Positions 45,331-47,939 of a DNA stretch of 64,000 nt are shown here, piece after piece; the first letter of the stretch is position 1, and each line of letters starts with the position of its first letter. Below the pieces are notes generated by a model that was given only the letters and a program-made list of their open reading frames with translations, was not told the origin of the DNA and did not search any database. Source of the stretch: Pseudanabaenaceae cyanobacterium SKYG29 (GTDB lineage: Bacteria; Cyanobacteriota; Cyanobacteriia; Pseudanabaenales; Pseudanabaenaceae); contig JANWWT010000001.1 of the NCBI GenBank assembly GCA_025055675.1, forward strand, positions 496,001 to 560,000. Direction: 5' to 3'. Both the position numbers and the translations under genes were made by a program.

Positions 45331-46392
45331 ATGACTATAGCAATTGGTAGATCACAACAGGTAGAGCGGGGATGGTTTGATGTCCTCGATGACTGGCTCA
45401 AGCGCGATCGGTTTGTCTTCATCGGCTGGAGCGGTCTCTTGCTCTTCCCCTGTGCTTTTCTCGCTATTGGTGGCTTCTTCACTGGCATCACCTTCGTTAC
45501 CTCTTGGTATACCCACGGTTTAGCTTCCAGCTTCCTGGAAGGGTGCAACTTTCTGACTGCTGCTGTTTCCACTCCCTCTTTGAGCATGGGGCACTCTTTG
45601 CTCTTGCTCTGGGGTCCTGAAGCCCAAGGGGACTTTACCCGTTGGTGCCAAATTGGCGGTCTGTGGACGTTTACCGCTTTGCATGGTGCCTTTGGTCTGA
45701 TTGGGTTTATGCTCCGTCAGTTTGAGATTGCCCGTCTGGTCGGTATCCGTCCCTACAACGCAATTGCCTTCTCTGCTCCCATTGCGGTATATGTGTCTGT
45801 CTTCTTGCTCTATCCCTTGGGGCAAGCAGGTTGGTTCTTTGCACCTAGCTTCGGTGTTGCGGGTATTTTCCGTTTTATTCTCTTCTTCCAAGGTTTCCAC
45901 AACTGGACTCTCAATCCCTTCCACATGATGGGGGTAGCTGGTGTCTTGGGTGGTGCTCTGCTTTGCGCCATTCACGGTGCTACCGTAGAGAACACCCTCT
46001 ACAAGGATGGGGAGTATGCTAACACCTTCGTTGCTTTCAATCCCACCCAGTCGGAGGAAACCTACTCCATGGTGACCGCTAACCGCTACTGGAGCCAAAT
46101 CTTCGGGATTGCTTTCTCTAACAAGCGGTGGCTACACTTCTTCATGCTGTTTGTGCCTGTTACTGGTTTGTGGATGGCAAGTATTGGTGTGGTAGGTCTA
46201 GCTTTGAACCTCCGTGCCTATGACTTTGTGTCCCAGGAGTTGCGGGCGGCAGAAGACCCCGAATTTGAAACCTTCTACACTAAGAACCTGCTGTTGAACG
46301 AAGGTATCCGGGCCTGGATGGCTCCCCAAGACCAGCCGGCTGAACGGTTTGTCTTCCCTGAAGAAGTGCTGCCTCGCGGTAACGCTCTCTAA
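45331..46392 (+). CDS. psbD: Photosystem II D2 protein
   Basis: The 353-residue protein forms the PSII reaction centre with D1, binding P680 chlorophylls, pheophytin, the QA quinone and the non-heme iron. Sequence from [17 protein letters not shown] to LPRGNAL is canonical: [19 protein letters not shown] (chlorophyll His), [19 protein letters not shown] (iron/QA His), and [12 protein letters not shown] near the C terminus. Five membrane helices are visible. It is followed by psbC on the same strand, but not overlapped by it. Length is normal (352 in most species). Confidence 0.99.
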
Positions 46393-46409
46393 TTTCTCTT
46401 ACCAGTCCG

Positions 46410-46439
46410 ATCGGCTATCTACTACTGTAGGTAGCTGGT
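46410..46439 (+). promoter_or_regulatory. Stem-loop between psbD and psbC
   Basis: GCTATCTAC (46414-46422) pairs with GTAGGTAGC (46427-46435) around a TACT loop with one G-U. Four more pairs (two G-U) extend the stem to 46410-46439, giving about 13 bp. It lies 17 bases after the psbD stop and is not followed by a T-run, so it is not a standard terminator. It could slow RNase, set the psbD:psbC ratio or be a processing site. Confidence 0.6.
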
Positions 46440-46481
46440 CTTTGCATAATAGATGACTAGTTTTCATGGAGTTTTACAGTC

Positions 46482-47885
46482 GTGACTACGACCATTAACT
46501 TTAATAGCCTGGGTGTAGGCGGACGCAGTTTGGAAACCAGTGGTTTTGCCTGGTGGTCTGGGAATGCGCGCCTAATTAACCTCTCTGGTAAGCTGTTGGG
46601 TGCTCATGTTGCCCATGCTGGTTTGATTGTGTTCTGGGCAGGGGCTATGACTCTGTTTGAGCTAGCTCACTTCACCCCCGATAAGCCCATGTATGAGCAG
46701 GGTCTAATCCTTTTGCCCCACTTGGCAACCCAGGGTTGGGGTGTTGGTCCTGGTGGGGAAGTGATTGATACCTATCCCTACTTCGTGATTGGCGTATTGC
46801 ACTTGATTTCCTCTGCCGTGTTGGGTCTGGGTGGTATTTACCACGCCATTCGTGGCCCTGAAATTCTGGAGAACTACTCCCAGTTCTTCGGCTATGACTG
46901 GAAGGATAAGAACAAGATGACCACGATCATTGGTATCCACCTGATCCTGTTGGGTCTGGGAGCTTGGCTACTGGTGATCAAGGCAATGTTCCTGGGTGGT
47001 CTCTATGATACTTGGGCGCCGGGTGGCGGCGACGTGCGGGTAGTAACTAACCCCACCCTTGACCCCACAATTATTTTTGGCTATCTGTTCAAGGCTCCCT
47101 TCGGCGGTGAGGGTAATATTATCAGTGTTGACAACCTAGAAGACGTGGTGGGTGGTCACATCTGGATTGGCTTTATCTGCATTGCCGGTGGTATCTGGCA
47201 CATTGTTACCAAGCCTTTTGGTTGGGCACGCCGTGCTTTCATCTGGTCGGGGGAAGCTTATCTCTCCTACAGCTTGGGTGCCCTCTCTCTGATGGCATTC
47301 ATCGCTACCTGCTACGTTTGGTTCAATAACACTGTCTACCCCAGTGAGTTCTACGGTCCCACTAGCTCTGAGGCTTCCCAAGCCCAAGCTTTTACCTTCC
47401 TAGTGCGGGACCAAAAGTTGGGGGCTAACATTGCTACTTCCCAAGGTCCGACTGGGTTAGGTAAGTATCTGATGCGTTCGCCCACGGGGGAAATTATCTT
47501 TGGTGGGGAAACGATGCGCTTCTGGGATTTCCGTGGTCCTTGGTTGGAGCCTCTCCGTGGTCCCAATGGTTTGGACATCGATAAGCTCAAGAATGACGTA
47601 CAACCCTGGCAAATCCGCCGTGCAGCTGAATACATGACCCATGCCCCCCTAGGTTCTCTCAACTCTGTGGGTGGTGTAATCACGGAAATTAATGCCGTGA
47701 ACTATGTGTCTCCCCGCTCTTGGCTGGCTACTTCCCACTTCTGCCTGTTCTTCTTCTTCTTGGTGGGACACCTCTGGCACGCAGGGAGAGCGAGAGCAGC
47801 TGCTGCTGGCTTTGAAAAGGGTATCGATCGCAAGAAAGAACCTGTACTGGAAATGGCTCCTATTGACCCTGTAGCTAAGGAGTAG
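46482..47885 (+). CDS. psbC: Photosystem II CP43 chlorophyll protein
   Basis: The 467-residue inner antenna protein of PSII has six helices. Canonical blocks are [28 protein letters not shown] after a short variable N terminus, and [34 protein letters not shown] near the C terminus. The large lumenal loop with the Mn-cluster ligand region ([20 protein letters not shown]) is intact. The start is the GTG at 46482 with GGAG ten bases before it. An in-frame TAG at 46458 bars any longer reading, so the gene begins 89 bp after psbD ends instead of inside it. A T-run terminator follows. Confidence 0.98.
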
Positions 47886-47908: not shown

Positions 47909-47939
47909 ACCGATCGGTCTAGTGCTGATCGGTTTTTTT
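47909..47939 (+). terminator. Intrinsic terminator after psbC
   Basis: ACCGATC (47909-47915) pairs with GATCGGT (47927-47933), followed by seven T. It lies 24 bases after the psbC stop and fits a rho-independent terminator for the psbDC transcript. The stem is built around CGATCG-type sequence common in this genome. Confidence 0.8.

Follow-up and report, generated by a model that had tools for sequence, protein, structure and literature searches.

In most cyanobacteria and in all plastids, psbC (encoding CP43) begins within the end of psbD (encoding D2), an overlap that has been lost in far-red paralogues (PMC9325196); its conservation across cyanobacteria and plastids has been used as an argument on the origin of photosystem II (PMC8047818). 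Tobacco psbD and psbC are considered only partly coupled, psbC having a transcript and a promoter of its own in addition (PMC8133689). Two copies of psbD are usual in cyanobacteria (PMC6053082, PMC3441193), and these copies convert each other (PMC6053082), whereas Prochlorococcus has a single psbD (PMC3441193). Differential decay of segments within one operon has precedents in pufBALMX, malEFG and papBA, as cited in PMC5927463. No description of overlap loss in the Pseudanabaenaceae, or of repeated losses, was found in the part of the literature that was searched.

The psbD–psbC junction

The junction described here lies in a stretch of 64,000 nucleotides from Pseudanabaenaceae cyanobacterium SKYG29, referred to as the window. 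It shares with the overlapping operons of Synechocystis, Gloeobacter and tobacco the gene order, the common strand, the D2 tail PRGNAL and a psbC GTG start with a Shine–Dalgarno (SD) spacing of 9 nt. Unlike in those operons, where psbC starts within the psbD frame and usually overlaps it by 16–17 nt, a spacer carrying a hairpin separates the two genes (Table 1), and CP43 begins MTTTINFNS rather than MVTLSN or METPFN. The psbD tail reads CGC GGT, compared with CGT GGT in overlap genomes, so the ancestral psbC start is absent, its GTG being replaced by GCG; a longer CP43 start is impossible owing to an in-frame TAG in the spacer.

Table 1 Features of the psbD–psbC locus (window positions)
Feature	Position	Strand	Remarks
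psbD (D2)	45331–46392	+	353 aa; stop TAA at 46390–46392; sole psbD found in the genome
Position of the overlapping psbC GTG in other cyanobacteria	46376–46378	+	GCG here
psbD–psbC spacer	46393–46481	+	exactly 89 nt; from sequence and ORF coordinates
Intercistronic stem-loop	46409–46440	+	14 bp; tetraloop TACT; no T-run
-10-like motif TGCATAATAGA, candidate psbC promoter	46443–46453	+	3′ of the hairpin; spotted by eye
In-frame TAG closing the psbC frame upstream	46458–46460	+	from sequence
GGAG Shine–Dalgarno of psbC	46468–46471	+	aligned spacing to GTG of 9 nt, as in overlap genomes
psbC (CP43)	46482–47885	+	467 aa; GTG start
psbC intrinsic terminator	about 47909–47939	+	ACCGATCGG ... CTGATCGGT, then T7 run; read from sequence

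These coordinates agree with the initial annotation, which had described a psbC detached from psbD by 89 bp, with its own GGAG and GTG and with a stop codon excluding a longer start. Its stem-loop is likewise present and free of a T-run, although the stem is 14 rather than 13 bp long. A sequence error in the interval, which it had raised as a possibility, is ruled out by the identical 89-nt gap in a separately assembled congener (G002) whose DNA is 86% identical here; the gap of G001 is 83 nt.

Distribution and origin of the gap

The overlap is the rule, as the initial annotation had held and as has been reported (PMC8047818, PMC9325196): a strict overlap pattern is matched in 268 of the 390 sampled genomes of the class. 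It is matched in no genome of the Pseudanabaena family (f1), to which the window's genome belongs and in which its closest named relative is the metagenome-assembled genome Cyanobacteria bacterium M5B4. Junctions of genomes outside the pattern were read individually, and several proved to be overlaps that the pattern had missed, including the Prochlorococcus-like L145 and L230. All f1 loci with a readable junction have a gap, of 83–268 nt. Further gaps occur in six genomes of family f5 (137–187 nt), which we take to be the JA-3-3Ab-like clade, in f29 (95 nt), f23 (181–182 nt), f21 (116 nt), f28 (113 nt), f38 (90 nt) and genus g43 of f13 (129–170 nt), and at locus L068 (109 nt), which looks related to f28. 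The gap is therefore not special to the window's genome but belongs to a whole family and to several other lineages.

This sharing counts in part against the initial annotation, which had named a gap common to several lineages as an ancestral state as evidence against its account; overlap nevertheless remains more likely than a gap to be ancestral, since Gloeobacteria and most crown cyanobacteria overlap. In a tree of rpoB, a single gene with weakly supported deep crown nodes, L231 and L232, presumably Gloeobacteria, overlap; next to diverge are f5 with f29 and then f1, all with gaps, followed by a crown that overlaps except in f21, f23, f28, f38 and g43. Parsimony places the overlap at the root, and seven losses are needed if only losses are allowed. 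Six steps suffice on the IQ-TREE topology if the overlap was lost once, early, and later regained. The overlap is thus probably ancestral, but it may have been lost before the crown and re-created within it. The overlap forces CP43 to start METPFN, METRFD or MVTLSN. Starts resembling M.T.F(N/D)S persist in several lineages with a gap; short as these motifs are, they may be a coding fossil, which would support loss of the overlap. Locus L141, which looks like a copy from the paralogous far-red (FaRLiP) cluster, retains METPFN as a remnant of the overlap. The FaRLiP psbD and psbC paralogues resemble the window in having lost the overlap (PMC9325196), but the uncoupled psbC of L141 starts with ATG, in contrast to the GTG of the housekeeping gene.

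Copy number of psbD also distinguishes the family. One psbD, adjoining psbC, is present in the complete or near-complete f1 genomes G003, G004, G006, G014, G023 and G026, and one also in G002 and in the window's own genome, whereas seven genomes from other families each have two that are nearly identical; psbD2 was apparently lost from f1 or never present in it. Copy number was rejected as a full explanation of the gap, and the two are not strictly linked, because there are exceptions both ways: Prochlorococcus keeps the overlap with one psbD, and f5, f29 and f23 have gaps with two. Among other photosystem genes, no full-length psbA was found in the window's genome (G000; partial match at C5:241343–241762) or in G002. 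Several psbA are present in related complete genomes, so the copies probably collapsed as repeats at the ends of contigs. Two adjacent CP43/isiA-like genes (L003, L004) lie at C2:228822–231366 of the window's genome; close to them, the other strand has a match to a cobalamin riboswitch (L003:1016–1157).

Traces of how gaps arose are preserved in some lineages. The g43 gaps hold a second, partial psbD tail, GAAGAGGTACTCCCCCGTGGTAACACTCTCTAA, before psbC, and the 22 nt 5′ of psbC resemble the psbD tail in L068, L122, L124, L134 and L135 (p of 0.000–0.009), with the SD kept. The resemblance is weaker in L137, f23 and f29, is not detectable in f5 or in the window's own genus (p of 0.3–0.7 in the latter), and among the f1 loci listed reaches p = 0.005 in L017 alone. 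Where two psbD copies occur they are homogenised (98–99.7% identical DNA), and in the two-copy genomes read, the copy unlinked to psbC ends CGC GGT, as in the window, and lacks the psbC start. Given this ending and the known gene conversion between psbD copies, recombination between copies is a plausible source of the gap, its trace presumably eroded in f1. Direct copying of the 3′ flank that psbD2 has today was rejected as the source, as no similarity beyond chance was found in two-copy genomes.

These relics fit a historical accident, in which the end of the psbD next to psbC was overwritten by that of another psbD copy together with its 3′ flank, leaving the spacer as a by-product of recombination and the hairpin as a decayed, now (nearly) neutral 3′-UTR structure. 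Such an event would account for the origin of the gap, but not for the covariation maintaining the stems described below; the relic is not consistently detectable in f1, and the gaps share no homology with the 3′ flanks of present-day psbD2 genes. We consider it a somewhat unlikely explanation of the arrangement. Within the g43 gap of L135 (genome G102) lies a 44-codon open frame (L135:2884–3056, - strand) whose product, without a Pfam match, would consist of a hydrophobic helix and, after it, another complete D2 tail.

Intercistronic hairpins

The stem of the window's hairpin includes three G–U pairs and is closed by the loop TACT, and following it is TTTGCATAAT. The 89-nt gap has a minimum free energy of -23.9 kcal/mol (z of -2.0 to -2.3), equalled in 5 of 200 shuffles; seven other same-strand gaps in the window have z-scores of -0.5 to 0.6, bar one at -2.0. 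Although the hairpin is the joint strongest perfect hairpin of the window, Markov-shuffled windows contain zero to three stems of 13 bp or more, and one such hairpin on its own is therefore not significant. With a z-score of about -2 the fold is weakly beyond chance, and it is conservation that makes the hairpin credible: three congeneric species preserve all 14 pairs, two of which show compensatory and two wobble changes. This conservation is suggestive of a selected hairpin; 55 of 500 shuffles of the three sequences perform equally.

Stronger covariation is found in Pseudanabaena, where 25 gaps show 97.6% of cells paired, compared with 31–43% for slid structures, and 13 pairs with double-sided changes, 11 of them in a T-run hairpin; none of 500 shuffles reaches such values, which is strong evidence from sequence comparison for selection on paired structure. 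The first of two hairpins in these gaps consists of an A-tract, a stem and a T-tract and is terminator-like, and the second is a long stem, itself conserved, whose apical part hardly varies. Fold z-scores range from -4.4 to -8.9 in Pseudanabaena, from -2 to -3.5 in the window's genus and from -2 to -4.8 in most other genera, with g6 at just -0.8. Gaps in other families usually fold better than shuffles as well; that of f21 shows no excess folding. Outside Pseudanabaena, a covariance model of its second hairpin (R1) failed to recover the element.

The extra Pseudanabaena hairpin, with its tracts and 11 compensated pairs, thus resembles an intrinsic terminator or attenuator. The hairpin of the window does not: it lacks the T run that directly follows the GC-rich hairpin of such a terminator and was not scored as terminator-like, whereas the same operon ends, after psbC, in a classical terminator with a T7 run. 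Its anatomy is that of an intercistronic stabiliser, a stable stem-loop without a T-run between two cistrons, conserved here in three species. In this it is like the decay-barrier hairpin of Rhodobacter pufBA–pufLM and like malEFG and papBA, in which a strong hairpin lacking a T-run lies between cistrons of one operon. The puf hairpin, as cited in PMC5927463, is the nearest working analogue; puf, like psbDC, encodes photosystem proteins that may be required in unequal quantities. The likeness is one of anatomy alone, between unrelated sequences.

Dispersed elements offer a different origin, in which the hairpin would be an inserted palindromic or heptamer repeat, such as the cyanobacterial short repeat TAGCTAT. 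Dispersed heptamers of the TAGCTAT/CAGCTAT type are present in G006 and in Pseudanabaena genomes, with an excess over the control in some f1 genomes (26 versus 1 in G006, 15 versus 3 in G023), and the covariance model has weak matches elsewhere in Pseudanabaena. Its strong matches, however, lie at psbDC alone, and the position of the gap element does not differ between genera. The TAGCTAT-type repeat is rare in the window's genome (four matches within two mismatches) and the hairpin is single-copy there, on which ground a dispersed palindromic repeat of REP, MITE or STRR type was rejected for it. Insertion is accordingly a very improbable origin.

The gap might instead act on psbC, as a 5′ leader that carries the gene's own promoter, TGCATAATAGA, or a regulatory structure tuning CP43 translation. 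The -10-like motif lies 3′ of the hairpin, is kept within the genus, and by eye has similar counterparts in genera g2 and g6 and a comparable place in g1, g2 and g6; the almost invariant tip of the second Pseudanabaena hairpin and the promoter of tobacco psbC (PMC8133689) also favour such a role. Against it, a promoter scan found no full sigma70 consensus promoter, and a promoter 3′ of the hairpin would leave the hairpin outside the psbC mRNA. Nor does the gap match known riboswitch families: no Rfam family matched it above the gathering score, with one sub-threshold match 5′ of psbD. We regard a leader acting on psbC as unlikely. Within psbC, the Rfam model of IsrR, the isiA antisense RNA, scores 160 bits (46899–47085, - strand); it matches every psbC and isiA tested, so the match reflects coding homology and is not evidence of an antisense RNA, and IsrR was rejected as part of the locus's regulation.

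The psbC start site and D2:CP43 output

All 37 distinct gap leaders start psbC with GTG, and an SD at an aligned spacing of 9 was scored in 33 of them, or 34 with L135, which also has GAGG at 9; being related by descent, these leaders stand for about seven independent lineages. The same spacing is found in 38 of 39 distinct leaders of overlap genomes, and the window's psbC, too, has the GUG with an SD at 9. Where the genes overlap, the D2 codons for EEVLPRG impose this geometry; in gap genomes D2 requires nothing of it, and three quarters of the window's ORFs have no SD core. Since GUG and spacing are kept although D2 no longer requires them, psbC initiation appears, on these sequence comparisons, to be under selection of its own.

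The initial annotation had concluded that the D2:CP43 ratio must be set by means other than translational coupling. Termination–reinitiation of the overlap type is indeed unlikely across 89 nt and a hairpin of -22 kcal/mol, but ‘must’ is too strong, given the same GUG and 9-nt SD spacing in overlap and gap genomes; the start-site part of psbC control may be unchanged between them.

Our preferred reading, to which we assign a probability of roughly 0.4, is that psbC initiates independently and that the hairpin determines where the psbD mRNA ends or how stable it is, yielding extra D2 from a single psbD. The sequences show the architecture, from which the mechanism is inferred. In the Pseudanabaenaceae, psbC, physically separated from psbD, would also be uncoupled from it translationally, with ribosomes loading directly at its own GGAG-N10-GUG site, in which the geometry of the ancestral overlapping site is retained. 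Located just 3′ of psbD, the stem-loop would mark the 3′ boundary of the psbD mRNA segment, serving in the window's genus as a barrier to decay or processing; Pseudanabaena has an additional, intrinsic-terminator-like hairpin. The D2 and CP43 mRNAs would thereby be made or kept in unequal amounts, and the arrangement would take over the job of the monocistronic psbD2 present in other cyanobacteria and missing in f1. A more specific proposal, that the start site itself is the selected set-point of CP43 synthesis, with the f1 hairpin making the only psbD the source of the extra D2 mRNA that replaces psbD2, is doubtful but worth entertaining.

With the overlap absent from a whole early-branching family and from several further lineages, psbC can readily be compared in its coupled and uncoupled forms. 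This makes it testable what sets D2 and CP43 output: the overlap, a GUG with long SD spacing, or the stability of mRNA segments. On the set-point proposal, about seven releases from the overlap would constitute a natural experiment on the psbC start site. That the start signal has outlived the overlap suggests that selection maintains the signal and not the overlap itself.
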